The translations under genes and the position numbers were made by a program. Positions 348-43,800 of a stretch of 54,886 nt of DNA are shown one piece after another (position 1 is the first letter of the stretch; each line of letters starts with the position of its first letter). The notes below the pieces were generated by a model. That model made no database searches, was not told where the DNA came from, and saw only the letters and a list, made by a program, of their open reading frames with translations. Source of the stretch: Deltaproteobacteria bacterium (GTDB taxonomy: Bacteria; Myxococcota_A; Polyangia; JAAYKL01); assembly GCA_016935665.1 (NCBI GenBank), contig JAFGQN010000109.1:1-54886 (forward strand), read 5' to 3'.

Positions 348-2327
348 CTATTCCATAATGGCGTATTCCTTATGGCATTCGGAGTCGCAACCATCACCAT
401 TGACCAGATTGCCATCTTCGCAGTCCTCGCCGTATTCGGTCTGAACCACGCCGTCGCCGCAGCGCACATCCAGGGTACAGTCACTTTTGCATTTACCGTA
501 TCCCCCTTCGTTGATGCCATCATCGCACGACTCGCCAAATAAGCTATTCAACACGCTGTCTCCGCAATAGGACCCCGGAACGCAACCCGGCGCGCACCCC
601 GATGTCTTAGTGGTCGAATATACACTCAGGTTGACACCGTCATCGCATTTTTCGTGGGAGGGCTGCAGTACACCATCGCCACAGCGATCTCCGCGAGTGC
701 AATCCGGCATACATGAGCCATAACTGCCATCGTTGACCCCATCGTCGCAGGTTTCGTTTCCCGCAACAATGCCGTCTCCGCAAAAGGCCTCGCACGTGCT
801 CTGAATAGTTGTAAATCCGGAAAGCGTCAGCTCATAACGGGAATTGTAGGTATGGCGTTCCGCATGAAACAACACGGTCTCATAGATGCGGCCCTCTTCC
901 AATCCAAGTTTCGCAGCCGTCTCCTCGTTTAGCGCCAGCTCCACGGACTGGCTGTTGTGGAGTCCGCCAATGTCAACGGCCAGTCGGTTGTTTATGAATA
1001 CCCACACATCGTCGTCTCCCAGAAAGTGCAGATATTCATCGCCTTCGTACTTGAACCAATAACGCAGTTCACTGGTAAACCCAAAGTTGTGACCGTCCAC
1101 CGCCTCTTCCTCACCACTTTTCACCCAGCCTTCGCCATCCATGGGGAAAAAATCACTGCTGCCAAAGAAATAGGTGTTGTCGCTGCGCCTTTCGAGGATC
1201 ATTTCTGCCGCGACCGTCTTATTTACCGACGCAACATCCGTGTACCACTGATTGAATTGGGCTTTCGATGTGGTCTGCGCCTCAAAGGGACAATCCGATT
1301 CCGAATATTTTCCCTCTTCGCAAATTCCCGTATAAATGGGATTTCCGTTGGCGCCCAGAGTGTTCATCACCATGCCCGGCGTAATGGCATCGCCGCTAAA
1401 TGTTTCAAAATCCGGGTGCTTTTTGGCATCGCCCACCGGCACTGCGATAAAGTCCCTGTATGTCACCGGCACCTTCAACACATCCGGCAGTTCATCTTCC
1501 ACATTGTCGCACTGGAAACCGGGCTCCACTTTGCAATCGGCGCTGCATCCGTCGTGATTCAGCAGGTTGCCATCGTCGCATTCCTCATTGTCCCCGGGTA
1601 AAATGATGCCATCGCCGCAGGCGGATACACAGGCGCCACTGCTGCAATCCGGCTCTTTTTGACAAAACGGCGTGCAACCATCGCCCACAACGTCATTACC
1701 GTCATCGCAGGCCTCCCGTCCCTCCTTTATCCCGTTGTTACATATAGTCTCCTTACACGGCTGCCCAGGCGTGGCGCAATGATACCCTTCTTCGAGTCGA
1801 CATGTTTGCGAGCATCCGTCAGCAGCGTTCGTGTTGCCATCATCACATTCCTCGGCGCCGGCCACCAATCCGTCGCCACATTTCGCGGCCACACAGCGTT
1901 TTCCCGCCACCAGACAAATCCAACCGGGTTCCAGCTGACAATTGGCGGAGCATCCATCCTGACTGACTGTATTAAAATCATCACACGTCTCACTGCCGCT
2001 CACCTGCCCATCGCCGCATTCGATGGTATACACGCACTTTTCACCGGGAGCAGTGCAGAAAAAGCCCGCCTCCACCGCATCGCACATGGCCGAGCAGCCA
2101 TCCCCGGAGTTATTGTTGCCATCATCACATACTTCGGAGGGTTCCATGACGCCATTGCCGCAGCCGGTGGTATCCTTTGGTTCCGTATCCGTATCCCTGC
2201 CATCTGTACCCCGCGGATCCAGCCCGCTCTCCGAATCATTATCTTCATTCGAATTACCGGGGGCGCAACCACTCGAACAGAGCAAAACCACAAAAACATA
2301 AAGTACGAAAAACCTGCAAATGAACAT
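348..2327 (-). CDS. Lipoprotein with DUF4215 Cys-rich repeats and a fibro-slime domain
   Basis: A 659-aa predicted lipoprotein. The N-terminus is hydrophobic and ends in a lipobox (CSSGC, Cys at about residue 21), followed by an Asp/Ser/Glu linker. From about residue 55 come repeats of the form CGDG-x-EECDDGN-x-DGCSxxC, typical of the DUF4215 myxobacterial repeat. A fibro-slime domain lies at about residues 370-510 (GDDDVWVFINN, DIGGLH, FHAERHT), and four more DUF4215-like repeats close the protein. GGAG lies 10 nt before the ATG, which supports this start. Fibro-slime domains are found in Fibrobacter and myxobacterial surface proteins, probably in adhesion; the exact ligand is unknown. Its fibro-slime domain is related to the C-termini of the two giant proteins in this window. 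The role as a surface adhesin or matrix protein is inferred. Confidence 0.9.
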   Translation of the reverse strand: MFICRFFVLYVFVVLLCSSGCAPGNSNEDNDSESGLDPRGTDGRDTDTEPKDTTGCGNGVMEPSEVCDDGNNNSGDGCSAMCDAVEAGFFCTAPGEKCVYTIECGDGQVSGSETCDDFNTVSQDGCSANCQLEPGWICLVAGKRCVAAKCGDGLVAGAEECDDGNTNAADGCSQTCRLEEGYHCATPGQPCKETICNNGIKEGREACDDGNDVVGDGCTPFCQKEPDCSSGACVSACGDGIILPGDNEECDDGNLLNHDGCSADCKVEPGFQCDNVEDELPDVLKVPVTYRDFIAVPVGDAKKHPDFETFSGDAITPGMVMNTLGANGNPIYTGICEEGKYSESDCPFEAQTTSKAQFNQWYTDVASVNKTVAAEMILERRSDNTYFFGSSDFFPMDGEGWVKSGEEEAVDGHNFGFTSELRYWFKYEGDEYLHFLGDDDVWVFINNRLAVDIGGLHNSQSVELALNEETAAKLGLEEGRIYETVLFHAERHTYNSRYELTLSGFTTIQSTCEAFCGDGIVAGNETCDDGVNDGSYGSCMPDCTRGDRCGDGVLQPSHEKCDDGVNLSVYSTTKTSGCAPGCVPGSYCGDSVLNSLFGESCDDGINEGGYGKCKSDCTLDVRCGDGVVQTEYGEDCEDGNLVNGDGCDSECHKEYAIME

Positions 2328-4499: not shown

Positions 4500-7400
4500 T
4501 TATTGTGGCGCCGCTTCAATCCCGGCGATGGAGGTGGTGATGAGGAAGTTGGAGTGGGTGATATTGCGTTCCGCGCCGAAGATATCCATGCGGTAGCTTT
4601 GGTCTTCCACCAGTCCCCAGTACTCAGTATAGTTGGGGTCTGTATCTGCGTCGTTGCCATCCCGAGCGGCAATCATTCCAGCACCGGTACCCGTCATTGT
4701 AACACTGGCGTTCTGTGCCCCGTGAATACCACCCAAATCAATGGCCAGGTTGCCGTCGATGAAGACCCACAAGTCATCGTCTCCGGAAAATTCAAACTTT
4801 TGTCCAGACTCATAACGGAACATAAAGTGCATTTCCGTTGTGAAATAGTAGTTTGACGAGTATGTGGTACCGCAGGGGTTGGTGGTTTGCAGATCATTAA
4901 ATAGTTCACCAGGACGGATGGGGTAATATTGCAGCTGGGTACAACCGGTACCGTAATTGAAGAACATTTCACCATCCTCTACTGCGCCTGCCTGATAATT
5001 GCCATCTAAATCCGGCCCAGTCAGTGGCATACAGATCTGCTTCTCCAGATTCACAGGACTCGTGGTATCTGTATCTGTGTTATACCATTGGGAAAAAGTA
5101 GTCCCATTTTTACTCATGGCTGTACAGGTTGTGGCACCGGTATTCACTTGAGGCTTTCTATCTGTACTCAGCGTGTCCAGAATCAGTCCTTCGCAGCTCG
5201 TAATTGTAGAATACGGGAAATCCACATGTGTTCCCCTCTCAATATCTCGAATTGTCGCTGTCAATTCCACCTCATCCACTTCGCTATCGCAATCGTTATC
5301 TCTACCGTCCTCGCTGTATATCTCGCACTGTCCCGGGTGACTGGTGGGGTCCAGGTCGTTGCAGTCGCCGGTATCCAGTTCCGCAGGGAGGGACCCTTCA
5401 AAACCAATGGCCACGTAGCCGTCGCCGTCCTGGTCCACACAACCCGCCAGTCCCAGGCCCCGCGCAGATGTGTCGCAGCCATTGACGCAGAACACCTCGT
5501 TATACGAATGCAGACAGGTACCCGCATAACAGGTCGCCTTACCGTCAAACTTCAACAGCACATCCATGTCCGCCGTATCGCATTCCCAATTCGTATCACC
5601 GATGCAGTCCACTGTGTCGCATGCGTCATTGGGATCGGCCCCGCGGCAGCATCTGAATCCGAGATTGTCCATTTTGAACGTGGCGCCATTGGCGGCCCAC
5701 AAATCAAAGTTGCATTTCATGCTGCCCGCCTGATCATTCCACGAGCCGCCGCGAATCTGGTAGGTGCCACTGCCGAGGGTTGTCTCAGTAGATGTCCATT
5801 CTTCCACGTTGCCGGACATATCGTACAGGTCAGTTGTGCCCCATTCCGCGATGCAATTCGGCATATCGCCCACCGGCATCATTCCATCGATTGTGGTGTA
5901 TTCCACCCCATTGCATGTGTTGGGATCATACGTGTCACCATACGGATAATCCGTTTGCGCAATGCCGCCCATCTCACAGGCAAACTGCCACTGACTGGCG
6001 GAACACAAATGCCACTGATCACTGGCAGAATCGGTATCGGCATAAGCCAATTGCTGACAGGCCGTTTCAGCGTCCGCCCGAGTAATGCCGGTCCAGGGCA
6101 ACACACCGTCTTTGGCGCAGGCCACCCCATTACTGCCGCTGCCCGCGCTCCCTGAACTGGCCCCCTGACGGCTGGCTTCAAATGCAAATATGTCGTAGTC
6201 ATCGGTGCCATTGCTGTCGTAATCAATGGACACATACGCGTCGGAATCCACGCAGTTGGTGTTTTCATCCACCAGTCCATCGCAATCGTCATCCAGACCA
6301 TTTGGCGTTTCAATTTTGCCCTGGGCCACCTCTGACGGCGTCAACACCACATTGGCGCACACAGCATCCGAATCGGTATCCTGGCAGCACACCGCCACTG
6401 CGGCGGCGTCCGTATCGCATCGCCAGATGCCTGTGAGAATACACGCCCCCTGTGAATTCGTATCGGAATCATCGGAGTTGTCACAGGCCGCCCCCAGATA
6501 GGGCGCAGTGGCCAGTGATTCGTCAATAAAGCCATCGCAATCGTTATCCAGCCCGTCGCATAGCGTCTCGTTGACCACCGGTACACCATTGATGTCCAGC
6601 TCCACATTGGCATCGTACACACACGCCCAGTCTTCTTCTGTATCGGACGTATCGCCAACACAGGTCACCGTGGCCTGTCCAACCGCCACACATTTGGCCG
6701 CGCATACGCCCGGCGCATCGTTGGCGTTCAAATCCGCATCATCCAAATCCCAGTCGCTGTCACAGTCATTGTCAATGCCATCACACTGCCGCTCAACCGT
6801 TTCTGCGGCATCGTTGGCCACGTTGTCGCAATTGTCGTCACCGTACCCGGCATCCCCCCAGCATACATCGCAATCGGCCATGGGATTGTCCGGATCGGTG
6901 CCACATGCCGCAACGTTGTACTCACATTCACACCCATCGGTCGGCGATAGCGTTAAATTGGCGTCGCGATAATTACCTTTACAGGTGGCGATTTCACATA
7001 CGCCGCCGCTGCACCGATAGCTGTTCACATTGGGCGCGCCAATCGTCGTGCAGTCCGTATTGCAATCACCGCAATGGGTCACATCATTTGAGAAGTTGAA
7101 GGCATCGTCCACCACACCGTCACAGTCATTGTCTTCGCTATCGCAACGGGTTTCCTGTATCACCAGCGCAAAACAGGGATCCGAATCGTTTGCCCGATCA
7201 CATTCCACAATCCCCGTGTTCGTTACGTCGTACTCACACCGCCACCCGCTGGTGCCATCACAGACCACCTGGGTCACTGTCGCTGCCGGACACTCGTAAC
7301 AACCGAACGCCCCTATATCCGGCACTGTCAAATCAGATAACTCATCGGTATCTCCGTCGCAATCGTTGTCATCCCCATCACACACCTCCACCCGATTAAG

Positions 7401-10400
7401 CGCCGGGTTCTCATCGCAATACATGTGAGTACCATCGCAGCGCATCACCCCCAATTCGCATTTGTCGGCATCATCGGTGCCATCACAGGCGATTTCGTAA
7501 GACGTGTCTCCCGCGCCGTCCGGGGTAGACGCATCGCAGTCATTGTCAATACCATCGCACACATCCGGACCATAGTTCAGGTTGGCGTCCACACAGGTCA
7601 TCGCGCCGCCAATACACTCCAAATGACCATCATTACAGGGAGAGCCGCAAACAGTGTCGGAATCCACAAACCCATGGAATGCGTCCTCATCCACCAGGCC
7701 ATCGCAATCGTTGTCCTCCCCGTCACACACATCACAATGGTCCGTATCGCCACAACTCGGTCCCACATCGCCCACACACCCATCCGAATCCGCGCATGAA
7801 TAGGTGCCCACCTGGCAAATGCCTTCATTGTAGGGATCGCAATCATTGGCGGGACGGTTGCAGGGCACCGTGCTGGAACCGCCACACTGATACGTCTCCA
7901 CTTCGTCCACAGCGCCGTCACAATCATTATCGGCGCTGTCACAGGCAATTTCCACATGGGTATCTGTATCGTCCAGACACGTAATCGTTCCGTCGATACA
8001 TTGGGTTACGTTGGCGGCACAGATGCCCAAACCGCAGGCAACTCCCAGACGCACACCGTCATGAATTTCAATGTTATTGGCATTGGAATCAGCTGCACTC
8101 AATTCATCGGTCAGGCCATCGCAATCGTTGTCGAGGCCATCACAAAGTTCCATCGCCGGTCCCACCGCTCCCACACAACCATCGTCTGTATCGTACTCCT
8201 CCGGCCCCGCCACACCGGAAGCAAGCGCCTGTGCAACGCATGATGCCAGCCCCGTCTGACAAATGCCCTCGTTGGGATTGGCGCCGGGGGCGCCGCCACA
8301 CGGAATGCGCAACGCTTCATCAGGCACACCGTTGCAGTTGTTGTCCAGTCCATCGCATACTTCGGTTTGAGGCAACTGATACCCCGAGCACTCCAGATTT
8401 CCCGATACACAACTTATGATTCCCGCCTGACAGATACCCTGACAACTGTATGTTCCGTCCGTATTCTCGATGCACCCGGTTGACCCGATGGGATAACACG
8501 GTGCACCACCTTCGGGATTGCCTTCATCTTTTTGCCCATTGCAGTTGTTGTCCAAATTGTCGCAAGTCTCAATAGCGGCGGTGTCGCCATCGCAGTAATA
8601 TTCACAGCCGTCCGTATCCACATCGTTCAAATTCCACCAGCGGGAATCGCATCCGGAAAGGGTGCATTGACCGTTCACGCAATCAGGCGAACCGTGATTA
8701 AACAGACAGAGATGACCACAGTACCCGCAGTTCTTGTCGTCATTTTGAAAATCAACGTCTTCATCAAATGAAAAGTCGCAGTCGTTATCCACAGGCACAT
8801 AACTGTCATTGTCGGGATCTGCGGACGTGGCAAATCCATCACAGCGGTCGGCGTTGTCATCCGGGTCCACCGTAGGCTGGCAAAAGTGTTCGCAGCCATC
8901 GGCGATGTTGCCATTCTGATCGTACCAATATATGTCGCAGGCCGCCACGGCGCATTGTCCCTGAACACACCCCGCCGACGCATGGGCCACCGTACACCCC
9001 ATACCGCAGGTCCCGCAGTTGGAGGGGCTGGTCAACAGATTCACACAGTACTGCGCACCGTTTTCCCGGCTGCAGCATGTTTCACCAACCGCACAGGTAC
9101 TGCAATCCACACCGGTATCATTCGAACTGTCAAAATCCGTACTGTCCGTCCCGCCATCCGTTGAGTCCGTCCCGCCCCCATCCGTTCCATAACTGGATGT
9201 ATCATCACTGTCACTGCCACCGCCATCGGTGGGGTTGATGCCGGAACTGTCGGTTCCCCCTGCACTGTCTGACGACGTGGTCCCGCCACCTGTGCCGCTG
9301 CCACTGCCGGTATCCTCCTCCCCCAGATGAAACGGTTCCACCTGACAGCCCAGCGCCAGCACAACCAAACCCAGCAATATGATGCGGGTGAGCCACAACC
9401 GATATACCTCTGCGCGTCGTCGCCGCGCCAAACGCAGCAGTGCCAGCATTGCGCCAAACACAATCACCATCCAGGGCAGGCTGTTTTCAGACGACGCTCC
9501 GGGCGCCGCACTGCACAGACATCCCCCCATTCCCGTTGCCAGCACGTCGGTCAATCCCTCGTAAGTGAGCGGTTCTTCACTATCCGAGGCGCTGTCGGTT
9601 GCACTATCACCACCCATACCCGACGTATCCGCGCTATCGGTCCCGCCCGCCGTATCCCCGCCAGTCGTATCCGTATCTGTCCCGGACGATGTTTGCCCCT
9701 CCGGCAGGTAACATGATCCTTCGAAACACACAGTCCCGTTTGGGCACTCGATATTCACGCATTCATCCGGCACGCAATTACCCTCTTCGCAGCGTTCATA
9801 GAAGTCGCAGGAAATCCCCGCACACGGATTGGTCAACGTGACGTCGCACAGTCCTGTTTGCGGATTGCACACCACTCCCGTTTTGCACATGACACCGGCA
9901 CATGAGTCTGCCACACATACGCCTTCTACACATCCCTGCAGCGCTGGACACGTCACATCCACACAGGTGCCCACACATTGCCCGTCACTGTTGCAATACT
10001 GATTTTCAGCGCAGGTCACGCCGGCACAGGGATCGACAACACATTCCGCACATATTCCGTCGGTGCACAATGCGATGGGAACGCATTTGTAACCGGATTC
10101 GCAGCCAGTCACCATACACCCCTCCGCAATGTCATGACATCGGCCATTATCGGCCACCACGCACACTCGGTCTTTGCCGCAATCCTTGTTGTAACAGACA
10201 TCCACACATTTTTGTGCAAGGGGATCGCACGCGCAGGGAGGCTCAAAGCCCTCACCCGGTGTACAATAGTATTCATTGAACACGCAGGGCAATGCCAGGT
10301 CGTTGCCGGCGTCGCAGACTGTCGCCATGCAAATCCGGACACCCGCTTCGTAAGTGATACAGGATTTGCCCACAGGACAAACAAACTCTCCTTCGTTGCA

Positions 10401-13400
10401 AGGCTCCGCACATTCGCCCTCCAGGCAGATAGCGCCCGCCAGAGGACACTCCACCTCATCATCTTCGTCTACCAACCCATCGCAATCGTTGTCGAGACCA
10501 TCGCACACCTCATCGGTCGGTCCAGGCGCACTGCACTCCCAGCCACAATCCTTACATTCAAACTGGCCCACCGTACATTCGCCAATGCCTTCGGGATTCG
10601 CTGCCTTAACAGCTTCATCGCTCATCCAGTTGGGCGCCTTGCTGCATTGTCCGTATGGCAACACGTCTTCATCCACCTGTCCGTCACAGTCGTCATCCAG
10701 ACAGTTGCACTCTTCGGAGGTGCCCCCGCTGCCACCCACGCATACCATGGCATAGTCCTTCGTCACGGGATCCTGTACACACTGCATCAACCCAGGTTCA
10801 CAAATGCCCAGTGACTGCCCGCATGCTTCACCCGAGCCCGCAATATCCTCATCCACGCTGTCATCGCAGTCGTTGTCGCGACCGTCGCACACTTCCATCT
10901 GGGCCACCACGGGAGACGTGCATTCGCTGTCGCTGTCCCACACCTCCGCATCACAACAATGCAAACTGGTTTCCACAATTTCGCCATCCACCACACTGAC
11001 ACACTGTTGAATGCCCTGTGGACACTCACCCACCGCCACCTGACACACCACATCCTCCATGTTATCGAAATCCTCATCCGACTGACCGTCGCAGTCGTTG
11101 TCCCGGCCGTCGCAGACTTCGGCCACCGGCCCCACCGAACCGAAACATGCCGTGGTCATGGCCCCGTCGAAACAGATGTTTAGACCTTCCACACATTCGC
11201 CGGCCGACGGATTTCCCGGAACGCAGGGAGAATCCGTATCCAATCCTGTAACACATCCACCACACGGTACCGGATCGATACCGTCGTCGATGACATCATT
11301 GCAGTTATCATCGGCGCCATTGCACACCTCATCTGCCGGCTCGTCTCCCACGCACACCAGCTCATAGGCGCCTATCTGTCCCGGTGTTCTGGCGCTGTTG
11401 GGCAAACACTGATACACGCCGTTGCACGCACCGCACGGCGTTCCCACCAGCGAAACAGCCTGGTTATCCAGCAAATCAACGGATTCCTCGTCTTCGAATT
11501 TTCCATCGCAATCATCATCGAGACCGTTGCACAATTCCTTTTGCGGTCCCTGTGCGCCGCTGCAGGCGCCCCACGTAGCCGGATCTTCGCTTTCGGTATC
11601 CGGGCTGCAATACTGTGTGCCCTTGCGGCAGATACCCACGCCATACGCGGCGTCGGGCCAGCTGTCTGTATCGATGTCATCGCCACAGTCATTGGTGATG
11701 CCTTCGTCCACATCGCCGTTGCAGTTATTGTCCAGATTGTCGCAGGCACTGCCCTCGGATACCGGCTTCACATATCCCGCACATGAAATGGTGCCACTGG
11801 TGCACGTATACGTTCCCTCCTGGCATTCACCTTTACACACGCCACCGACGCATCCAATCAAACCCGCTGGATAACAGGGTCCAAGAGAAATCCCTTCATC
11901 CACAATGCCATCACAGTCATCGTCGAGGTTATTGCACATTTCCGCTGTGGGGCCCACATCCCCCACACAACTGCTCCAATCCGCCACACCGCTGCCCAGC
12001 ACAGCCTGACAGGTTCGTGTTCCCACCGTGCACCGTCCCGCGCCAGGATCGGTACTGATGCAATCGAACTCCGTATCCACTCCAATTTCACACCCTCCGC
12101 ACGATTGCGCCGTTGTCTCATCCACCGTACCCTCACAGTTATTGTCCAGACCGTCGCAAATTTCCGCTCTGGGAGAGACCACATCAGTCCCGTCGTTGCC
12201 CACGCACTGCATTGCAGGAATGCTTGAGTTGCACTGCATGGTGCCCGCGTTGCAAATGGAATAGGGCTCCATCTGGAACGTGGTCCAGGACGCGGCGCCT
12301 GCGGGGCATACCTGTGTTTCCACCACGTCTTCATCCAATAAACCGTCGCAGTCATCATCGAGGCCATTGCAGGTATTATCTTCGCTGCGAGGCGTCACCA
12401 TGCCCACACATACCTCACTGCCGGACAAACAGGTCAACTGTCCTGGCTCACAAATGCCCTTGCAATCATATGTGCCGTCGCTGTTGGTATCCATACACCC
12501 GTTGTCTGCAATCGCGTCGGTATCGCTGTAACAGGCGTTGCCTTTATTGGGGAATGTCTCGTCGGCCTGACCGTCGCAGTCATTGTCGCTTCCGTCACAG
12601 GTTTCGTCGGTGCCCCATACCGCGTTGCATTGCCAGTCACCGTCCACACAAACCAGATGTCCCGCAGAACAGATACCCACATCCTTGCCGCATGTGGCGC
12701 CGGTGTTTTCCAGGGGGTTGCCCGCTGTATCTTCATCGGTGTCCCCATCGCAATCGTTGTCCATACCATCACACGTTTCTTCCGTGGGCCCCACCGCGCC
12801 AATACATGCGAGACCATTACCCGGAATGCACTGCACAAGCCCGCTTTTGCACTGAACACCGGTGGTGTTGTAATTACTCGGAATGGTGGTGGTATATCCA
12901 GCGCCCTGGGACACACACTGTGCGTGCCAATCCGGATTATAGGTGATTGACCAACCATCGATCGGCACTTCGTCCACCTGGCCATTGCAGTTGTCGTCCA
13001 GCCCGTCGCACACCAGTTCCCCCGGATCGTCACACACCGCATTCCAATTGGGGTTACGGTACAATTCACCGTCGGTGTCATACCAATATGGATAGACGGT
13101 GGTATCGGAATCCGAGTCCGAATCCGTATCCCAGAACACGGTCGCCGGCAGACTCAACTTATTGGGGTCGCAATAGTCGCCCGCCACGCCTTCATCCACC
13201 AGACCATCACAGTCGTCATCCAGATAGTTACACTCTTCAATCAAAATTGCCGAAGAAATGATGTTGGCCAAAATCGTGGAAAGGGACTGCTGACTGTTGG
13301 CCAGAAAGGCGTAGCCAATGCTGCCATTACAATTGCTGTCGGGATGCGCTGTCCGCGCTGCCGCGCCACGCGCGGGGTCGTAATGACATCCGCCTACATC

Positions 13401-14411
13401 TGCCATGTAGTCCAGCGTGGTCGACTGCGCCGCCAGACCGATCACCCAGGTTTCCACCTGCAATACGTCGTGCAGCGCATCCACGCCGTACTCGAATTCG
13501 AAACCCGCATTGTCGCCCGTTCCGCCCACCACATCCGCACCGGTAATGGGATCGAGTCGACCATCAAAGTCCCCATCCGCCAGAATGACCAGATAATACG
13601 GCCGGCACTCCGATACCGGGTCTGCCGCCTTGACCTGCGCCAGATACCGATACGCTGCGTGCACCGCTTCGCCCAGGGGCGTTCCGCCATCGCCCCGCAG
13701 CTCCTGCTCGGTCAATTCACTGTACGGACTGGGGTACACCGAGGTCAGAGGCGCCACGAACACGTTGGAATCGATGTCCATCGAAGTATCACTATCGTAC
13801 TCCACGTGGTCAAACCACGCTTTCAGTTCTTCGATTTTTTCGTAGTACAAATCGTCGGCATCGGGAAACTCTTCGCACAAATAGAAGGCCTGGTTGAATG
13901 ACGAATCCGAGTCCGAGATAAAGTAGGGCGCATAATCGTAATACACATCCGTGCCCACAGTGACCTCATCCGTGTCACCGGCACCCAGCCCCTGGTAACG
14001 CAATGAATCGTTGGCGCCCTGCGACTGATTGTTCACATACCACTGCACCTGAAATCCAGGATTGCCATCGGCATCATATGCCTGAGGAAACTTCATGAGT
14101 GCAAACTCAATATCCCCCGTGGAATCGATCATCTGGGTAATTGCATCCTTGGCAATGCGCATCCGGGATTCGCCCAGCCCCGGGCAGCAGTATCTGTCTG
14201 CATAAATGTCTCTGGAACCGTCCCCAAAGGTCGGCGAACCACCAATATCAAACGTCATGCTACCCGATGTATCAAACAGAATCAGAATTCTGGGTTTCAC
14301 GGTGCTTTGACTTCGTGCGGCAAAACTGATTGTCAGTGCCAATGCCATCACTGACCCAAATAAAAACCGGCCCATTTTCCTGTGGTGATTCGCGCTAAAA
14401 AATTCAAACAC
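4500..14411 (-). CDS. Giant two-part surface protein: VWA, MopE repeats, internal MYXO-CTERM-like tag, internal lipobox, FGE fold, fibro-slime domain
   Basis: A 3303-aa exported protein. The GTG start is supported by AAGGAG 10 nt upstream; a signal peptide runs from Met13. Domain order: von Willebrand A domain (about 40-385, MIDAS DTSGS at 47-51); 14 MopE-type repeats (CDGxDNDCDGxxDE) from 393 to about 1340; a Cys-rich EGF-like region to about 1560; Thr/Ser/Asp/Gly linker; GGCLCS (Cys1631) with a membrane span and RRRR; then directly a second membrane span ending in lipobox LALGC (Cys1689); about 13 more MopE repeats; FGE-sulfatase/C-type-lectin-like fold (about 2714-2925: YDMSGNVEEWT, IRGGSW, LGFRCC); and a C-terminal fibro-slime domain (about 3050-3303: SGDDDLWVFIDG, DLGGIH, FGAERN). 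It therefore reads as two complete surface proteins fused in frame. Probably an adhesin or matrix protein; metal binding is known for the family and the ligand is unknown. Its paralogue is at 34870-44679. Confidence 0.92.
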   Translation of the reverse strand: MFEFFSANHHRKMGRFLFGSVMALALTISFAARSQSTVKPRILILFDTSGSMTFDIGGSPTFGDGSRDIYADRYCCPGLGESRMRIAKDAITQMIDSTGDIEFALMKFPQAYDADGNPGFQVQWYVNNQSQGANDSLRYQGLGAGDTDEVTVGTDVYYDYAPYFISDSDSSFNQAFYLCEEFPDADDLYYEKIEELKAWFDHVEYDSDTSMDIDSNVFVAPLTSVYPSPYSELTEQELRGDGGTPLGEAVHAAYRYLAQVKAADPVSECRPYYLVILADGDFDGRLDPITGADVVGGTGDNAGFEFEYGVDALHDVLQVETWVIGLAAQSTTLDYMADVGGCHYDPARGAAARTAHPDSNCNGSIGYAFLANSQQSLSTILANIISSAILIEECNYLDDDCDGLVDEGVAGDYCDPNKLSLPATVFWDTDSDSDSDTTVYPYWYDTDGELYRNPNWNAVCDDPGELVCDGLDDNCNGQVDEVPIDGWSITYNPDWHAQCVSQGAGYTTTIPSNYNTTGVQCKSGLVQCIPGNGLACIGAVGPTEETCDGMDNDCDGDTDEDTAGNPLENTGATCGKDVGICSAGHLVCVDGDWQCNAVWGTDETCDGSDNDCDGQADETFPNKGNACYSDTDAIADNGCMDTNSDGTYDCKGICEPGQLTCLSGSEVCVGMVTPRSEDNTCNGLDDDCDGLLDEDVVETQVCPAGAASWTTFQMEPYSICNAGTMQCNSSIPAMQCVGNDGTDVVSPRAEICDGLDNNCEGTVDETTAQSCGGCEIGVDTEFDCISTDPGAGRCTVGTRTCQAVLGSGVADWSSCVGDVGPTAEMCNNLDDDCDGIVDEGISLGPCYPAGLIGCVGGVCKGECQEGTYTCTSGTISCAGYVKPVSEGSACDNLDNNCNGDVDEGITNDCGDDIDTDSWPDAAYGVGICRKGTQYCSPDTESEDPATWGACSGAQGPQKELCNGLDDDCDGKFEDEESVDLLDNQAVSLVGTPCGACNGVYQCLPNSARTPGQIGAYELVCVGDEPADEVCNGADDNCNDVIDDGIDPVPCGGCVTGLDTDSPCVPGNPSAGECVEGLNICFDGAMTTACFGSVGPVAEVCDGRDNDCDGQSDEDFDNMEDVVCQVAVGECPQGIQQCVSVVDGEIVETSLHCCDAEVWDSDSECTSPVVAQMEVCDGRDNDCDDSVDEDIAGSGEACGQSLGICEPGLMQCVQDPVTKDYAMVCVGGSGGTSEECNCLDDDCDGQVDEDVLPYGQCSKAPNWMSDEAVKAANPEGIGECTVGQFECKDCGWECSAPGPTDEVCDGLDNDCDGLVDEDDEVECPLAGAICLEGECAEPCNEGEFVCPVGKSCITYEAGVRICMATVCDAGNDLALPCVFNEYYCTPGEGFEPPCACDPLAQKCVDVCYNKDCGKDRVCVVADNGRCHDIAEGCMVTGCESGYKCVPIALCTDGICAECVVDPCAGVTCAENQYCNSDGQCVGTCVDVTCPALQGCVEGVCVADSCAGVMCKTGVVCNPQTGLCDVTLTNPCAGISCDFYERCEEGNCVPDECVNIECPNGTVCFEGSCYLPEGQTSSGTDTDTTGGDTAGGTDSADTSGMGGDSATDSASDSEEPLTYEGLTDVLATGMGGCLCSAAPGASSENSLPWMVIVFGAMLALLRLARRRRAEVYRLWLTRIILLGLVVLALGCQVEPFHLGEEDTGSGSGTGGGTTSSDSAGGTDSSGINPTDGGGSDSDDTSSYGTDGGGTDSTDGGTDSTDFDSSNDTGVDCSTCAVGETCCSRENGAQYCVNLLTSPSNCGTCGMGCTVAHASAGCVQGQCAVAACDIYWYDQNGNIADGCEHFCQPTVDPDDNADRCDGFATSADPDNDSYVPVDNDCDFSFDEDVDFQNDDKNCGYCGHLCLFNHGSPDCVNGQCTLSGCDSRWWNLNDVDTDGCEYYCDGDTAAIETCDNLDNNCNGQKDEGNPEGGAPCYPIGSTGCIENTDGTYSCQGICQAGIISCVSGNLECSGYQLPQTEVCDGLDNNCNGVPDEALRIPCGGAPGANPNEGICQTGLASCVAQALASGVAGPEEYDTDDGCVGAVGPAMELCDGLDNDCDGLTDELSAADSNANNIEIHDGVRLGVACGLGICAANVTQCIDGTITCLDDTDTHVEIACDSADNDCDGAVDEVETYQCGGSSTVPCNRPANDCDPYNEGICQVGTYSCADSDGCVGDVGPSCGDTDHCDVCDGEDNDCDGLVDEDAFHGFVDSDTVCGSPCNDGHLECIGGAMTCVDANLNYGPDVCDGIDNDCDASTPDGAGDTSYEIACDGTDDADKCELGVMRCDGTHMYCDENPALNRVEVCDGDDNDCDGDTDELSDLTVPDIGAFGCYECPAATVTQVVCDGTSGWRCEYDVTNTGIVECDRANDSDPCFALVIQETRCDSEDNDCDGVVDDAFNFSNDVTHCGDCNTDCTTIGAPNVNSYRCSGGVCEIATCKGNYRDANLTLSPTDGCECEYNVAACGTDPDNPMADCDVCWGDAGYGDDNCDNVANDAAETVERQCDGIDNDCDSDWDLDDADLNANDAPGVCAAKCVAVGQATVTCVGDTSDTEEDWACVYDANVELDINGVPVVNETLCDGLDNDCDGFIDESLATAPYLGAACDNSDDSDTNSQGACILTGIWRCDTDAAAVAVCCQDTDSDAVCANVVLTPSEVAQGKIETPNGLDDDCDGLVDENTNCVDSDAYVSIDYDSNGTDDYDIFAFEASRQGASSGSAGSGSNGVACAKDGVLPWTGITRADAETACQQLAYADTDSASDQWHLCSASQWQFACEMGGIAQTDYPYGDTYDPNTCNGVEYTTIDGMMPVGDMPNCIAEWGTTDLYDMSGNVEEWTSTETTLGSGTYQIRGGSWNDQAGSMKCNFDLWAANGATFKMDNLGFRCCRGADPNDACDTVDCIGDTNWECDTADMDVLLKFDGKATCYAGTCLHSYNEVFCVNGCDTSARGLGLAGCVDQDGDGYVAIGFEGSLPAELDTGDCNDLDPTSHPGQCEIYSEDGRDNDCDSEVDEVELTATIRDIERGTHVDFPYSTITSCEGLILDTLSTDRKPQVNTGATTCTAMSKNGTTFSQWYNTDTDTTSPVNLEKQICMPLTGPDLDGNYQAGAVEDGEMFFNYGTGCTQLQYYPIRPGELFNDLQTTNPCGTTYSSNYYFTTEMHFMFRYESGQKFEFSGDDDLWVFIDGNLAIDLGGIHGAQNASVTMTGTGAGMIAARDGNDADTDPNYTEYWGLVEDQSYRMDIFGAERNITHSNFLITTSIAGIEAAPQ
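9345..9524 (-). other. Internal junction: MYXO-CTERM-like motif, transmembrane hairpin and lipobox inside the giant ORF
   Basis: Codons 1630-1689 encode GGCLCS, a Ser/Pro-rich spacer, a hydrophobic span, an RRRR cluster, a second hydrophobic span and the lipobox LALGC before QVEPF. The first half of this has the order of a C-terminal sorting tag of the MYXO-CTERM kind (Cys motif, span, basic cluster). The second half has the order of a type II signal peptide. No stop codon lies between them. Predicted topology: both large flanking arms outside the inner membrane, joined by a two-span hairpin. Confidence 0.75.
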
Positions 14412-14703: not shown

Positions 14704-15873
14704 CTACGGCGCCTCACCGCCATCCATAATGAACCAGTTGTATTGTTGCGTCAGTATTTTTCGGGCCTCGTCTGACGCGGATGTGTAGTTGCTTCTCCCG
14801 GCGTTAAAGTAAATGTGAGTAACCACATTCTGACCAGCGAAAGAGATAAGGAGCGCATCGTAATTTTAGGGAGACAGATTTTCAACAAATTCGCGAGGCG
14901 GCGCAAAATCAGCGTCCACCTTATCACCTTCTATGTCTCCACCGCCCGTCATGCCACCGCAAAAGTCGGTTACATTGGCCACGTCCCACGTTGACAAATC
15001 CTGATCGAAGGCACCTGCCATCTCAAACATGGCGAACATCCGTGTTACCTGTGACACTTCTCATGTGGACAAGTCCTGATTGAATACCGAAGCCCCAATG
15101 AACATTTCAGACATCTCGGCAACGCGCGAAACATCCCAGTGCGCGAGAGGCTGATTGAATGCCGCAGCCCCGCGAAACATGCCGAACATACTGGTCACCC
15201 CCGATACATCCCACGAATCAAGGGGCTTATCAAACACGATGGCATTGGCAAACATAAATGACATATCCGATACATGGGACACATCCCAATTCGCCAGCGG
15301 CCGGTTGAACACCCTGGCGCCCTCAATCATTGAGGCCATATTTTCCACATGGGAAACGTCAAAGGCAGACAAATCTGAATTAAACAGCCTGGCGTTGTGA
15401 AACATTCCGCGCATATTCGTCACCGACATCACATTCCAGCCGGAGATATCCCCATTGAATATTGTAGCTCCCTCAAACATACCGTGCATATCGCGCACAC
15501 CGGTAGTCACCCAATCCGTTAAATCCCGATTGAAATTCTCCGCCCAGGCAAACATGTATGCCATGTCTGTTACATTTGATACATCCCATTTCGAAATGTC
15601 GCCGTTAAACATATCTGACGCTTCGAACATGGATTTCATACTGGTAATTGACGACACATCCCAGCCTGCAAGGGCGTCGTCCCGCCACCCTGAACATCCC
15701 GGGCCACACTCTTTGTGAGAGCATTCCGATGGAGAATCGCTGCTGCACGAATCCAGAAAGCAACCTAAAAGAGACGTGGTCTTCGACAAATCCGGAGTAT
15801 CTTTGGCGGTGATTTCCAAATTCAATGTATAGGCAAACTGCGCCAATGTATCGCCAAACGCCATATTCCCCCA

Positions 15874-15955
15874 CTGAGCCACTTTCAGCAGTTTTGGCGC
15901 GTCCCCCGCATTTTCTGAGCCACTTTCAGCAGTTTTGGCGCGTCCCCCGCATTTT
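15874..15955. repeat. Perfect 41-bp tandem duplication within the DUF285 gene
   Basis: Positions 15874-15914 and 15915-15955 are identical 41-bp units starting CTGAGCCACTTTC. Because 41 is not a multiple of three, the second copy shifts the reading frame of the minus-strand lipoprotein gene. Removal of one copy would join the two open frames exactly at KVAQ-WGN. The identity of the copies suggests a recent event, or one that can revert by slippage. Confidence 0.95.
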
Positions 15956-34869: not shown

Positions 34870-37800
34870 CTATTTGGGAATGGCTTCGATACCGGCGATG
34901 GAGGTGGTAATGAGGAAGTTGGAGTGCTGCGTGTGGCGCTCAGCTCCGAAGATATCCATGCGATAACTTTGATTTGGCGTCAGTCTCAGATCATTCAGGT
35001 TTACTGTCGCAGTAGCGGCGCCATGAACACCGCCCAAATCCATCACACGTTGTCCATTGATAAATACCCACAAATCATCGTCTCCGGAAAATGTGAAGGT
35101 CTGGCCTCTTTCATACCGAAACATAAAGTGCATCTCGGTAGTAAAAAAGAAGTTGTGGGGTTGTCTTGCCCCGGTGCAGGTTGGTGGATCACCAGGATTA
35201 TAGCCATCGTAGTTCGGAGTTTTTGAGTCGGCGAATAATTTTCCATCAATGGGGAAATACTGCATTTGGCTACACCCATAATTTTTGAAAATCTGCCCAT
35301 CCGCATATTTACCGGCTGTGTAAATGACGGGATTCGTGTTCGGTTCTTTCACCAGTGGCATACAAATTTGGGTTTCCCGGTTCACCGATGTATCGGTGTT
35401 ATACCATTGGTTGAACTGATACTCACTGGTGAGTACCTGGACGTTTCTATTCAACGCCTGAGACCAGCAATTTCCATAATTAAAATTGGGTTTGTAATCA
35501 TTTGTATCAATATTGCTCTGCACTAACCCTGCACACACTGGATAATCGAAATTCTGCTCAAATCCAATTTCAAAATCGGGATGACTTTCTCTGAAGTCAC
35601 GGATGGTGGCCAGCAGTTCCACTTCGTCAGTGGTACCGTCGCAATCGTTGTCGATGCCGTCCTCGCTGTTGGATTCGCACATAGAGGGAAAAGAATCCGG
35701 GTTCATATCGTCACAGTCCCCTTTTTGCAATCCAGAAGGCATCACTCCCGGGTAATCCCTGTGCACCCATCCATCCCCATCCATATCGATACATCCGGGT
35801 TTGCCAGTGCCCATTGCCACACTGCTGCATCCAATAGCGCAGAAAATCTCCACGTAAGAATCGACACACGTACCATCATAACATTTGGCGCCGCCGTCGT
35901 ATTTGCGCAGAATATGGGTATTTCCGCCGGGATCGCATTGCGAATCCGTGCGACCTGAACATGTCGTGCCAATACAGGCATCATCCGGATCCTCACCACG
36001 GCAGCAGCGGAAGCCAAGATTATCCATTTTAAACTTCGCACCGTTGGCTGCCCAGAGATCGAAATCGCAGGTCAGACTCTCCGGCTGATCATTCCACGAA
36101 CCACCGCGAATCTGGTATACCCCGCTCCCCGGCGACGTTTCGGTGGACGTCCATTCTTCGGCATTACCGGACATATCATACAGGTACGTGGTTTGCCCCC
36201 AATCTGCAATGCAGTACTCATTGGCGCTGTTGGCGCTGCCGCCTGGAATCAAGGCACCCGAATATCTATCTATCCCGTTGCATCGATCCTCGTCGTAAAC
36301 GTTGCCGTAGGGATAGGCATACTTCTTCACACCCTGCGCGCAGGCGAACTGCCATTGGCTGGCAGAGCAAACCGACCAATTCCCATCTTCCAGAGCCTTG
36401 CAGGCCGCTTCTGCCTCCAGTTGAGTAACACCAGTCCACGGAATAGTGTTGCCAACAGAACAGGCCACTCCGGCATTGCCACCACCGGCATTTCCCGCAT
36501 TGGCGTTGAAGCGGCTGGCTTCAAAGGCAAAAATCTCGTAATCGTTGGTGCTATCGTTGTTGTAATCCACCATCACCGTTTCATTGGCACAGCTGGTTCC
36601 TTCGTCAATTAAGCCGTCGCAATCGTCGTCGACACCATTAAGAATCTCGGTTTTGCCTTCCACCTCTTCGGACGGTGTGGGTACTTCGTTGACACACACC
36701 GCATCGCTATCACTGTCGGCACAACACACAACGGGCGCTTTGGGATTCGAGTCGCAACGCCATGTTCCCGTTAATATGCAGGCGCCCTTGGAGAAGGGAT
36801 CATTCACATCGGAATTGTCGCAAACGGTTCCCAGATAGCCGGCGTTGGCCACAGGTAGATTCTCATCCACAAACCCGTCGCAATCATTGTCCAGTCCGTC
36901 GCAAAGTGTTTCGTTGCCCACGGGAATACCACCGGCCAATTCCACACTCGTATCGTAAGTACATTCCCAATCCTCATCAGTGTCAGACGGATCGCCGTTG
37001 CACGACACCTCTGCCACACCGTACTCCACGCACGTTGACGCACACACGTTGGGCGCATCGTTGACGCTCAAATCGTCATCGGCCAAATCGATGGCATTAT
37101 CGCAATCATTATCAATCCCATCGCACCGCTGCTCAACAGCAGGCGCGGCATCATTGGGAACGTTGTCACAGTTGTCATCGCCATAGCCAGCAGCGCCCCA
37201 GCACACATCGCATCCCGCGGTGGGGTTATCAGGATCACTACCGCAGGCCGCCGTGTTGAATAGGCATTCACACCCATCACTTTCGTCGTTATTGGCATCC
37301 CTGTATTTCCCTTCGCACCGTGTGATCTCACAGGTTCCCCCACTGCATTTGAAATCGCCCAGATTGGAGGCAGGAATAATATCCGCGCACGCGTTGCCAC
37401 AGGCGCCGCAGTTGTTTTCGTCCGCACTCAAGTTGAAATCATCATCTGCGATGCCATCACAATCATTGTCTACCTGGTCACATCGGCTCTCCTCTGAATA
37501 CAGTTCAAAACAGGGTTCGCTCGAATTAATGCGATCGCAATCAAGAACTTTGGCAAACTGATTGTTCACATCGTACTGACACCGCCAACCATTTTTGCCA
37601 TCGCACACTACCCGAGTTTCGCCCACTGGGCACGTGGCACAACCAAAGGCTGTGGGACTGGCGGGGGGCGTCAGGCCATCATCCACCACTCCGTTGCAGT
37701 CGTTGTCCACGCCATCACACACCTCCACATGAGATACGGTTTCCTCGCAAACCATAGCTGCACCATCACACCGCATAACCCCGGAGGCGCACTGGTCCGC

Positions 37801-40800
37801 ATCGCCACCATCGCAGGGAGTGTCGAAATTGGCTTCCGCAGACCCATCCGGAGTGGTGGCATCACAATCGTTGTCCTGGCCATCGCACACATCCTGACCA
37901 TAGTTCTGGTTCGCTCCCACACAGGTCATGGCGCCGTTTATACACTCCAGCATTCCGTCATTGCAGGGAGTGCCGCAAATCTTCTGCGTAGCCGTGTAGC
38001 CGTAGAATGCGTCCTCATCCACCAAACCGTCGCAGTCATTGTCTTCTCCATCACACACATCGCAATGGTCTCCATCCGCACACGCAGGCGGCACATCCCC
38101 CACGCACCCATCCGCCTCTGCACAGGAAGAAATACCCACCTGACAAATCCCCTCATTGTACGGATCGCAGCCGTTTACGGTGTCATTGCACGTCACTGCA
38201 CTGGAACCACCGCATTGATAGGTGGTAACTTCATCCACCGCACCATCGCAATCGTCATCAATGTTGTTACAGGCGATTTCCATGTTGGGAACAGTAAAAT
38301 CTTCACACGTGATCACTCCGCCGATGCACTCTGTCACGTGAACCGCGCAGGCGCCGAGGCCACATGCCACGCCGAGGCGTGCCGCGTCATTCACATTGAT
38401 ATTGTTGTTATTGCCATCCACCGTTGCCAATTCGTCCACCAACCCGTCACAATCATTATCGAGGCCGTCACATCTCTCCAAACCAGGCCCCACGGCGCCC
38501 ACACAACTGTGGTCCGTGTCATAAACAGCCGTCCCGGGGACGCCCGGCGCCGGGGATTCCGCCACACACGGTGCCAGTCCCTGTTGACAGATACCTTCAT
38601 TGGGATTGGGACCTGGTGCACCGCCACAGGGAATTCGCAGCGTTTCATCCACCTGACCATTGCAGTTATTATCCAGGCCATCACACACCTCGCTCTTCGC
38701 CAGCACGTAGTTGGCACATTCCAGATTGCCTTCGACACAGCTTATTTGACCGGTGGCACAAACTCCGATACAATTGTAACTGCCATCATCGGTATCGAGA
38801 ATGCACCCAGTGGAACTGTTGGGATAACATACCGCACCGCCACCCGGATTTCCTTCATCCTTTTGTCCGTTACAATTATTATCCACATTGTCGCATACTT
38901 CCAGGGCATCGGTATCGCCATCGCAATAATACTCACAGCCGTCCGCCATGGTGTTGTTCATATTCCACCATTTATCGTCACATCCCGTCAACACACATTC
39001 GCCCAGCGCACAGGTGCCGCTCCCATGGTTGAACATACACAAATGACCGCAATATCCACAGTTTCGGGGATCATTTCGAAAATCCACGTCTTCATCAAAC
39101 TGAAAATCACAATCATTGTCGAGGGGCACGTAGTTATCGCTGTCGGTATCCGCCGAAGTCGCCAGACCATCACATTTATCGCCGTTGTCATCGGGATCCA
39201 CCGTGGGTTGGCAGTGGTACTCGCACCCATCGGCCACATTACCATTGTGATCATGAAAATACGTATTGCATGCAGCCAACACACAGCCGCCGTTCTGGCA
39301 CTGTGCGGTTGCGTTATCATAGACGCATTCCGTACCGCACGCGCCACAGTTGGTTGGACTGTTGAGCAGATTCACGCAATACTGAAAACCACCCTCCGTT
39401 CTGCAACAGGTTTCCCCCGCCAGACATGTGCTGCAATCCACCCCTGTATCGAAATTGCCATCGGAACCTGTCCCATCTGTTCCCAAAGAATCGGTACCGT
39501 CGCTGTCCGAAGACGAAATCGAACTGCTGTCTGTGCTGTTTTTCCCATCTGTGCCGTCGGTTTCCACCTTGAGATTGCTGCTGTCCTGGCCAAGCAATCC
39601 TTCGTTTAAATTGTACGGTTCCACCTGACATCCCATCAGTGCCAGCAACAGCGCCAATCCACCCGCTTTGACCAACCAGATGACCCGCCGCCGCGTCATC
39701 GAACGACGGAACAGACGCATCATCAGCAGCATGAACGCAATCGCCAGGGCCTGCCATCCCAAAGGTTGCGATATGGTTGCGCCCGGTGCAGTACTGCAGA
39801 GGCATCCACCCATCCCCGTCGCCAGCACATTATCAAGGCCCTGGTAATTGTCTGGATTTTCATCCGAATCGTTCGGCGTTCCATTCGAATTGCTGTCACT
39901 GTCAATCACTGTCGATGATGAATCACTGTCAAAGGTGCCACCATCCGAATCCGTTCCAGTCAATGGACGGCTGCCCTCTGGCAGGTAACAGGAACCTTCG
40001 ATACAAATGTTGCCATTGGGACACTCCACATTCCTGCATTCATCTGGCACGCAAAGGCCAATCTCACAGCGTTCATGGAACTGACAACTCACTCCGGCGC
40101 ATGGATTGGTCACACCCGGATCGCATTGACCCGTTTCCGGATTACACAACACTCCGATTTTGCATATCACGCCGGCGCAAACATTAGGACCACACACGCC
40201 TTCTTCGCATCCCTGGCCTGCGGGACAATGGACATCCGCGCACGTTCCAACGCAAACCCCGTTGCCGTTGCAGTACTCATTGTCACCACAGACAACTCCC
40301 GCACAGGGATCCTGTACACATTCCTGACATGGCGCCTGTGTACAGGGTTCAATGTCGACACATTTTTCGCCGGGCTCGCACCCGGTCACCATGCAACCTT
40401 CTTCAATATCGTGACACCGCCCGTTATCTGCGGCGACACACACGCGACCTTCACCACAATCCTTCCCGTAGCAACTATCCACGCACATCTGCGCCACAGG
40501 ATCACACGTACACGGTGGTTCAAAATCGTGTTCAGGAGAACAGTAGAATTCATTAAATACGCAGGGCAGCGCATTTCCACTGGATGGGTCACAGACAGTT
40601 GCCATGCAGACTTTTGTAGTGACATCCAACTCCACACAGCTCTTGCCCACCGGGCAAACAAATTCGCCGTCATTGCACGGCTCGGCACATTCGCCTTCGA
40701 TGCAAATAGCGCCTTCCAAAGGACATTCCACCTCATCATCCTCATCCACCAAACCATCGCAGTCATTGTCAAGGCCATCACAAACTTCCGGCGTTGGGCC

Positions 40801-43800
40801 AGGTGCATCACATTCCCACCCACAATCTTTACATACAAAAGCACCAACAGTGCATTCGCCGATGCCATTGGGATTCGCCCGCTGCACTTCAATATCACTC
40901 ATCCAGTTATCCGCCTTGCTACAGACGCCATTGGGAGCGATATCTTCGTCCACATCTCCATCGCAATCATCATCAAGGCAATTGCACTTTTCAGCTGTAC
41001 CGGCGGTTCCCCCAATACAGGCGATGCCGTAATCGCCAGTCGTCTGATCAAAGACACACTGCCAAACACCCGGCTCACAAACGCCAAGAGACAATCCGCA
41101 TGCGTCTCCCACTCCCGACAATTCCTCATCCACCAAACCATCGCAGTCGTTGTCGCGACCGTCACACACTTCCAGCTGCGACACAACAGGTGAAATGCAC
41201 TCGCCGCTTGTCCGCCATATATTCGCATCGCAGCAATGCAGGGCCGTCTCCACCGATTGCCCATCGACCACATTCACACACTGTTGAATGGCTTCGGGGC
41301 ATTCACCAACAGCCACCTGACAAATGGTGTCGGCCATATCATCGAAATCCTCATCAACCTTACCATCGCAATCGTTATCTTTACCATCGCAGACTTCCTG
41401 AACAGGTCCTACCGAACCATAGCATTCGGTAGTCATTGCACCGTCGATACAGTAATTCAACCCCAACGCGCACTCTCCCGCAGCCGGATTACCTGCCACA
41501 CACGGCGAATTCGCATCAAGTGGTGTCAGACAACCACCGCAGGCCACCGGATCGATGCCGTCATCGGGAATATCATTGCAGTTTTCATCAAGGCCGTTGC
41601 AAACTTCAGGTTTGGGCTGGTCCCCTTCACATACCAGTTCATATGCTCCCATCTGTCCAAGGTCTTTGGCGAGGTTTCGCACGCACTTATAAATGCCGTT
41701 GCAACTGCCGCAACTGGTCCCCACCAGAGAATCTTTGGCATTGGCCAGCAGGTCTGCCGCTTCCTCATCTTCGTATTTGCCATCGCAATCGTCATCGAGG
41801 CCATTGCACAGCTCCTCGCTCGGCCCCTGAACCCCCGCGCAGGTTCCCCATGCCGCGGGATCTTCACCGCTGGTGGCCGGACTGCAATACTGAATGCCCA
41901 GGCGACAAAGTCCGACGCCGTATTGCGCATTGGGCCACTTCGACGCATCAATCGGATTCCCGCACGGGTTCGTAATTCCTTCATCCACCATGCCGTTACA
42001 GTTGTCGTCCAGGTTATTGCACACGGTGCCTTCGCTCACCGGTTTCACATAGCCATCGCAGGAAACAGTGCCGTCGGTGCATTTATAGGTTCCCAGCGCG
42101 CATTCCCCCACACAGACATCATTTTTGCATCCCTGCAGTCCCGCGGGATAACAGGTCCCAAGCGAGAGGTCTTCGTCGATCTGGCCATCACAATCATCAT
42201 CGAGCTTGTTACATTCTTCCTTCCTGGGGCCGACGTCTCCAACACATGCGCCATAGGAAGCCACACCGCTGCCAGCCACCGCATTGCACGAGCGTTTGCC
42301 CACAGCACAACGGCCCAGCGCCGGATCATTGGGATTACAGTCAAAGTCCGTGTCAACTCCGATCTCACAGCCGCCGCAGGCTTGCGTCATCCCCTCATCC
42401 ACCTGGTTATCGCAATCGTTATCCAATCCATCACACACTTCTGTTTCGGGATAAACCACCGGTTTCGCCGCGCCATTATAGAGATTTCCCACACACTGCA
42501 TTTCCGGCACCGACGAATTGCACTGCAGCGTACCAGCATTGCAGATAGACAACGGATTATCCTGTATGGTCGTCCAGATTCCCGATCCCACCGGACACGT
42601 GCGCGTCTCCAAAACATCTTCGTCCACACTGCCGTCACAGTCGTCATCCAGTCCGTTACAGGTATTGTCTTCGCTCTTCGGCGTTATCATGCCGATACAT
42701 TTTTCAGTGCTGTCATCACACCCCAGCTGACCTGTCTGGCAAATCCCCTTGCAACTGAATACACCGTCACCGTCCGGATCAAGGCAGCCGTTGGTTGCAA
42801 TGCCATCGTTATCGCTGTAGCATACCGTTCCTTTGTTCGGAAACGTTTCATCGGTCTGACCGTCGCAATCATTGTCAACGCCATCGCATTTTTCATCCGT
42901 CCCCCAAACCGCAGTGCAAACCCACTCACCGTTGTCGCAAATCACTTTGCCCGGTTCACAGGCGCCTTCGTCCTTGCCACACGTAATCCCCGATTTTTCA
43001 AGGGGCTCTCCGTTAGAGCCTTCATCCACCAGACCGTCGCAATCGTTATCAATCCCATCGCAACGCTCTTCACCCGCAGGACCAACGGCGCCAATACACT
43101 CCAGACCACTGCCCGGGATGCACTCCACCTTGCCGCTCTTGCATTGGGACCCTGATGTATTGTAGACAGGTGGAATTGTCTTGCTGTATCCGCCGCCTTC
43201 AAGGGGCACACAGGCCGCATTCAAATCAGGATTGTATGTGGTCGACCAGCCTCCAGCGGGCATTTCATCCGTCTGGCCATTACAGTTATCATCCTCACCA
43301 TCGCACACCCTTTCGCCGGGATCGGAACAAACGCTGTCGTAGTTGGGATTGCTATACGTCACGCCGCCTTGCGACCAGGGTGTTTTTGTTCCCAGAACGT
43401 TGTGGACGTCGCACCACTCACCAGCCACACCCTCATCCACGAAGCCATCGCAGTCGTCATCAAGGTAGTTGCATTCCTCAATCAAAATCGCTGACGAAAT
43501 AATATTGGCCAGAATGCTGGACAGCGACTCTTTGCTGTTGGCCAGATACGCGTGTCCAGGGTTGCTCCTGTCGCAGTCGGAAACGTTCGATGCACCGGGA
43601 TGAATACCGATCACACGAGGGTCCCGATTCGCGCTGTTGTCCCAGTGACAACCACCCACGTCCGCCATGTAGTCCAGCGTCTCTGAAGCAGCAGCCAACC
43701 CCACCACCCAGGTTTCCACACCCAAATCATCGTACAACGCATCCACGCCAAACGCATTGTTGTAAAACTTCGAACTGGGCATCCCAGTACTCTCATCGAG

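Follow-up and report, generated by a model that had tools for sequence, protein, structure and literature searches.

To our knowledge, polyproteins encoded by cellular bacterial genes are few. The chromosomal fbcH gene of Bradyrhizobium, coding for cytochrome b/c1, yields two envelope proteins via a cut at an internal signal peptide. In comparison with the locus described here, fbcH relies on a type I signal, serves a respiratory complex and involves neither a sorting tag nor a second protease.

Sorting tags of the MYXO-CTERM type are cut by myxosortase, as was found experimentally in M. xanthus and E. coli, and the secretin of the system exporting the tagged proteins is GspD (Guo, Haft and Wall 2025, PMC11980579). 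The sections of that paper drawn on here also describe MXAN_5598 of Myxococcus xanthus, a single ORF coding for a large surface part, an internal MYXO-CTERM and then a second envelope protein; its authors propose a gene fusion with processing of the N-terminal part, call internal tags rare and, in these sections, do not discuss a second signal peptide after the tag. In the traAB operon of myxobacteria a MYXO-CTERM gene is followed, with a four-base overlap, by an envelope-protein gene (PMC3325183).

The window analysed in this work (the whole stretch of 54,886 nucleotides) carries two giant ORFs in which such a tag is directly followed by a lipoprotein signal. A first-pass annotation had reported this junction in the 3303-aa ORF, read it as a polyprotein split by myxosortase and Lsp, and knew of no described case. 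Its coordinates proved exact (tag at 9513-9527, codon of the lipobox Cys1689 at 9345-9347), and the polyprotein remains the best-supported reading; the remark that no case had been described needs correcting, since MXAN_5598 had already been published with an internal tag.

The fused genes of the window

The features of the two fused genes are collected in Table 1. The copy 1 junction (residues 1629-1689, GGCLCSAAPGASSENSLPWMVIVFGAMLALLRLARRRRAEVYRLWLTRIILLGLVVLALGCQ) runs in the order GGCLCS, span, RRRR, span, LALGC, is devoid of stop codons throughout and leaves about 1640 residues downstream of the tag. Met13, rather than GTG1, is the probable start for the N-terminal signal of the A half. 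Twelve stretches distributed over the whole ORF match Pfam PF11617.

Table 1. Features of the two fused ORFs in the window
Feature	Position	Strand	Basis or remark
Fused A-B ORF, copy 1, 3303 aa	4500..14411	(-)	ORF translation
A half, copy 1: type I signal peptide, VWA-like domain, MopE-type D-x-D-x-DG repeats, Cys-rich stalk, Ser/Thr/Asp linker, to tag Cys1633	9513..14411	(-)	
MYXO-CTERM signature GGCLC (G1629-G-C1631-L-C1633), copy 1	9513..9527	(-)	TIGR03901 match and invariant Cys
First membrane span, copy 1, aa 1645-1662	9426..9479	(-)	Hydropathy; AF2 helix 217-236 of junction model
Basic loop RRRRAEVYRLWLTR, aa 1663-1676, copy 1, predicted cytoplasmic	9384..9425	(-)	K/R versus D/E counts
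Possible relic start site of gene B, copy 1: GAGGTA then TTG (Leu1672)	9396..9410	(-)	
Second span and lipobox IILLGLVVLALG before C1689, type II signal peptide, copy 1	9345..9383	(-)	Gene B starts here in split relatives
B half, copy 1: predicted lipoprotein from Cys1689-QVEPF..., MopE repeats, FGE-sulfatase-like and fibro-slime domains	4503..9347	(-)	
FGE-sulfatase-like domain, copy 1 B half	about 5643-6110		
Fibro-slime domain, copy 1 B half	about 4527-4856		
Fused A-B ORF, copy 2, 3269 aa, paralogue with the same junction	34870..44679	(-)	
Tag GGCLC (Cys1626, Cys1628), copy 2	39796..39810	(-)	Alignment; TIGR03901 no match
First membrane span, copy 2, aa 1640-1657	39709..39762	(-)	Hydropathy
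Basic loop RRSMTRRRVIWLVK, copy 2	39667..39708	(-)	
Second span and lipobox LALMG before C1684, copy 2	39628..39666	(-)	

With the NCBIfam MYXO-CTERM model TIGR03901 (cut-off 20 bits) the copy 1 tag scored 26.8 bits as an isolated fragment, 26.6 bits in a six-frame search of the genome and 18.1 bits when the full-length protein was run through hmmscan. The tag fragment of copy 2 (junction GGCLCSTAPGATISQPLGWQALAIAFMLLMMRLFRRSMTRRRVIWLVKAGGLALLLALMGCQ, 39628-39810) did not match the model. A third paralogue with the same junction (L016) lies on another contig, C137, of the genome, and its tag fragment scored 22.0 bits. Another C-terminal anchoring domain, NF058595 ("lipo-invert"), has a weak local resemblance to the span region, but its scores of 16.0 and 15.1 bits fall short of the cut-off (37), so it was rejected and the ORF is not a member; its genome-wide match list is noise, the model giving matches in 14 of 14 control genomes as well.

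MopE-type repeats in both halves and a VWA-like N-terminal region are common to all three paralogues, and both window copies have the FGE-sulfatase-like and fibro-slime domains near the C-terminus. The VWA label rests on a DTSGS motif and on Pfam matches below the cut-off, since Foldseek, run with an AlphaFold2 model of the region (pLDDT 37.9), returned VWA folds as best matches at an E value of only 0.0035. A sequence search of the PDB found no match. Two neighbouring genes on the same strand also resemble surface protein genes: the product of 348-2327 (-) has DUF4215 repeats and a PA14/fibro-slime-like part, and that of 15061-15882 (-) has DUF285 (394.7 bits).

Split relatives and breadth of the fused junction

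The two halves also exist as separate genes, in the order A then B, adjacent or overlapping, at 15 loci of the window's class (best four candidates per genome in the phylum search). Split gene A stops a few residues past the tag span in a tag-span-RRRR-stop arrangement (e.g., DRILAAGGCMCRVGASPRSGGHGLALLGLLGLGLLIARRRRS followed by the stop codon), and split gene B opens with a lipoprotein signal of the form M-basic-span-[GAS]C (e.g., MRRFLLIALLLAGCEVDPFC). In 11 of the 13 split pairs examined the genes overlap by 4 nt, the B start lying on the A stop as ATGA or GTGA. This is like the overlap in traAB, although the products of these two genes have other domains and TraB belongs to the OmpA proteins rather than the lipoproteins. 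In these pairs gene B is preceded by a strong Shine-Dalgarno sequence of GAGG or GGAGG type, with anti-Shine-Dalgarno pairing energies of -7.2 to -12.1 kcal/mol (mean -10.3). Related Cys-rich/MopE proteins from other classes of the phylum terminate some 30 residues past the tag. The split and A-only relatives thus identify the tag as a natural protein end and the lipoprotein signal as the natural start of a different protein; in the split relatives, stop and start are placed exactly between the two signals. A stop codon between the halves had been named beforehand as possible evidence against a polyprotein. It was literally found, yet it corroborates the polyprotein reading because fused genes also occur in near-complete genomes. 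At one further locus (L113:5943-11768, G341:C40) the order is reversed, with the lipoprotein gene B directly upstream of the tag gene A.

The same junction was searched for at two levels. First, a profile of the junction with its flanks was built on the three paralogue junctions; its matches were not chosen for their lipobox. It found 10 further complete junctions, which come from five other genomes belonging to the same order as the window. Each of the resulting 13 homologues of the window's family is a single open frame (1661-3502 aa); the Cys pair of the tag and the lipobox Cys are present in 13 of 13 and the Gly at -1 in 12 of 13, while the mean pairwise identity of the spans and loop is just 27%. 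A chance pattern is excluded. A contig scan with query A1 found no relatives; the scan with a complete-genome relative as query did.

Second, the phylum search, which scored the best four candidates per genome and whose counts are therefore no frequency estimates, raised the number of fused ORFs to 44, distributed over 23 genomes from 8 families. This wider set was collected by the pattern [GAS]C..xP[FYW]; since the pattern is lipobox-like, lipobox conservation in the set is partly circular, and only the 13 homologues of the window's family are non-circular in this respect. L139 and L145 were added by eye as fused and L143 as split; L117 and L121, which have a stop codon, were counted as split. 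Among the fused genes are L144 in a genome consisting of a single contig of 10,327,335 bases (G190) and L094 and L135 in a two-contig genome (G368); named records with fused genes are, among others, those of Sandaracinus sp. NAT131 (PABA01000013.1) and of Myxococcota bacterium Prado146 (JALOQD010000001.1). By kinship the window belongs with the class of Sandaracinus, probably Polyangia, rather than with Bradymonadia.

Only the Cys and the Gly at -1 are strict lipobox positions. Position -3 is loose (A in copy 1, T in L016, Q in L046), and evolution is faster in the junction than in the flanking sequence (dN/dS 0.28-0.88). A conserved C-x-[VA]-[DEQN]-P-[FY] motif, perhaps related to sorting, stands right after the lipobox Cys in most of the fused and split relatives. 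Three loci (L092 of G271, L124 and L125) have the same junction with other outer domains, lacking the VWA-like start and having sialidase-like repeats at the end; in these the junction outlives domain swaps.

Fused and split states have replaced each other repeatedly. A quick IQ-TREE phylogeny of A-tail plus B-head (56 rows) has 7 state changes, at least 4 of them forced by starred branches, and holding all fused rows in one clade was rejected (lnL lower by 331, two long rows left out). Both states are also found within single genomes: L096 fused and L110 split in G163, L094 fused and L114 split in G368.

Topology, processing and start signals

In the window junctions the Cys signature, span and Arg-rich cluster of MYXO-CTERM are all present, as are the basic n-region, hydrophobic h-region and lipobox with Cys at +1 of a lipoprotein signal, its -3 position being loose. 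What differs is location: the tag is internal in the window and C-terminal in split and other-class relatives, and the lipoprotein signal is internal in the fused ORFs and N-terminal in split gene B. Over 42 fused homologues, the stretch that joins the spans contains a median of 6 K+R (minimum 4) and 0 D+E (maximum 2), which fits a cytoplasmic loop. An AlphaFold2 model of the junction gave two consecutive helices between disordered linkers, with a low mean pLDDT of 55.9.

Relevant processing enzymes are encoded in the genome. Out of its five CPBP proteases one (L055, 1108-1827, contig C182) is above the NCBIfam Mrt_core cut-off, scoring 127.6 bits against NF040914 (cut-off 100) and staying below the cut-offs of the subfamilies MrtP, MrtC and MrtX. 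The genome shares with the MYXO-CTERM/myxosortase system both the tag elements and the Mrt_core protease, the internal position of the tag being the difference. An Mrt_core protease above cut-off is present in 13 of the 14 genomes of the window's order. Two adjacent lspA genes with PF01252 matches lie on contig C82 (106270-107525), and GspD is present too. One of the two LspA proteins could have a special role, such as the processing of internal signals.

We consider it likely that the fused ORF encodes a two-protein precursor, derived from the fusion of an overlapping gene pair and cut by myxosortase and Lsp. It is supported by the split relatives, by the retention of both signals throughout the fused members of the window's family, and by the presence of one myxosortase-family protease, two LspA and GspD; most likely, the giant chain would be cut apart at the membrane after translation. 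Following gene fusion, the precursor would be exported through its N-terminal signal and form a hairpin, with the tag span N-out/C-in, the Arg-rich loop in the cytoplasm and the second span N-in/C-out, which would put both halves of about 1600 residues on the outer side of the inner membrane. A myxosortase-type CPBP protease would cut at the tag Cys, which is probably lipidated, and the freed A half (VWA-like, MopE, Cys-rich) would become a lipid-anchored surface protein. Lgt and Lsp would process the second signal to give the B half (MopE, FGE, fibro-slime), now a lipoprotein that begins with Cys1689, and about 55 hairpin residues would be discarded. Both cleavages, lipidation, surface export and equal amounts of the halves are what we infer. 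Several points speak against this scheme: the copy 2 tag is below the TIGR03901 cut-off, the -3 position is loose, the junction evolves fast, the AlphaFold2 model is weak and copy 1 has a possible relic start. A tag inside the chain also differs from the C-terminal tags tested elsewhere.

The hairpin with its basic loop would anchor a protein stably, and the sub-threshold tag of copy 2 might likewise indicate that the fused protein stays whole, as an anchored chain of about 330 kDa, or is cut at one site only to give an A half with an uncut tag and a released B lipoprotein. We regard such an outcome as unlikely: in split relatives the orthologous halves are separate proteins and the state has changed repeatedly, neither Cys signature has been lost from a junction that otherwise varies, and the protease is present in the genome.

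The start signals of B have a different fate from the two processing signals. A start codon (ATG, GTG or TTG) between the spans is absent from 8 of the 42 fused junctions, and the best Shine-Dalgarno energy of fused genes (mean -4.5) is close to that of matched internal codons (-3.7 +/- 0.4), compared with the mean of -10.3 in split pairs. By these measures the start signals of B are decayed in the fused genes, so that in most of them translation no longer sets where B begins, yet tag and lipobox are retained. On the simplest reading, it is Lsp that would now set the N-terminus of B and myxosortase the C-terminus of A; the fused genes behave as if one precursor had replaced two proteins. In the loop of one fused gene (L050, G008:C470) ten consecutive A (CGC AAA AAA AAA ATA GCG) lie exactly between the halves; a one-base slip there would lead to a TAG stop right after RKKK and could yield short and fused products.

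These start signals also bear on the idea that B is made, additionally or mainly, from a translation start inside the ORF, the lipoprotein signal being an ordinary N-terminus and the A-B chain a by-product. B does begin at this place in split relatives, an ATG with a good Shine-Dalgarno sequence is present in L131, the loop of copy 2 contains an in-frame ATG (39697-39699, leading to MTRRRVIWLVKAGGLALLLALMGC) which lacks such a sequence, and in copy 1 GAGGT followed by TTG would give MWLTRIILLGLVVLALGC, at -7.1 kcal/mol and with no conservation in relatives. The missing start codons and the near-background Shine-Dalgarno strength led us to reject a conserved internal start as a general mechanism, and with no stop codon an upstream ribosome would still produce the fused chain. 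This idea therefore appears improbable, although some separate B may arise from the possible start of copy 1. The loss of a stop codon through assembly or sequencing error, conceivable for a 249-contig draft, is refuted by three paralogues and 41 further fused genes (44 fused ORFs in all), including those in single- and two-contig genomes, and its probability is negligible.

A second junction type and the significance of fused genes

The genome of the window has a second kind of fused junction. L017 (contig C28, 5062-10995; 1978 aa) starts with an N-terminal lipobox and thrombospondin-3-like repeats, which are followed by the tag GGVSCLCS-span-RRR and a type I signal (VLGATQAMAQ); the remainder reads, on inspection, as a barrel with an OmpA-like end. 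This layout is like that described for MXAN_5598, and junctions of a tag with a type I signal like that of L017 were found in more than 10 other genomes of the phylum. The junction principle is thus wider than the combination of a tag with a lipoprotein signal. Window copies 1 and 2 share with MXAN_5598 the internal MYXO-CTERM inside one ORF; they differ in the second element, which is a type II signal with a MopE/FGE/fibro-slime protein in the window and an OmpA barrel in the published description of MXAN_5598. New here are the lipoprotein signal as the second element, its breadth, and the equivalence of fused and split forms; the internal-tag relative itself had already been published.

Overall, the fused genes probably represent a chromosomal bacterial polyprotein that is widespread within a single class of Myxococcota, in which a myxosortase tag and a signal peptide make up a composite junction, two different intramembrane proteases, one glutamic (CPBP) and one aspartic (Lsp), would cut one chain into two lipid-anchored surface proteins, and fused and overlapping forms are interchangeable in evolution. 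Most likely a single gene would thereby yield two proteins, by a route that is unusual in bacteria. Annotation pipelines that require C-terminal tags and N-terminal lipoboxes miss surface proteins in these genomes. Tens of fused genes are accompanied, in the same class and even in the same genomes, by unfused pairs that constitute natural controls. This material allows one to ask whether internal signals are substrates of myxosortase and Lsp, whether the two enzymes act together, and why stoichiometric delivery of the A-B pair would be favoured.
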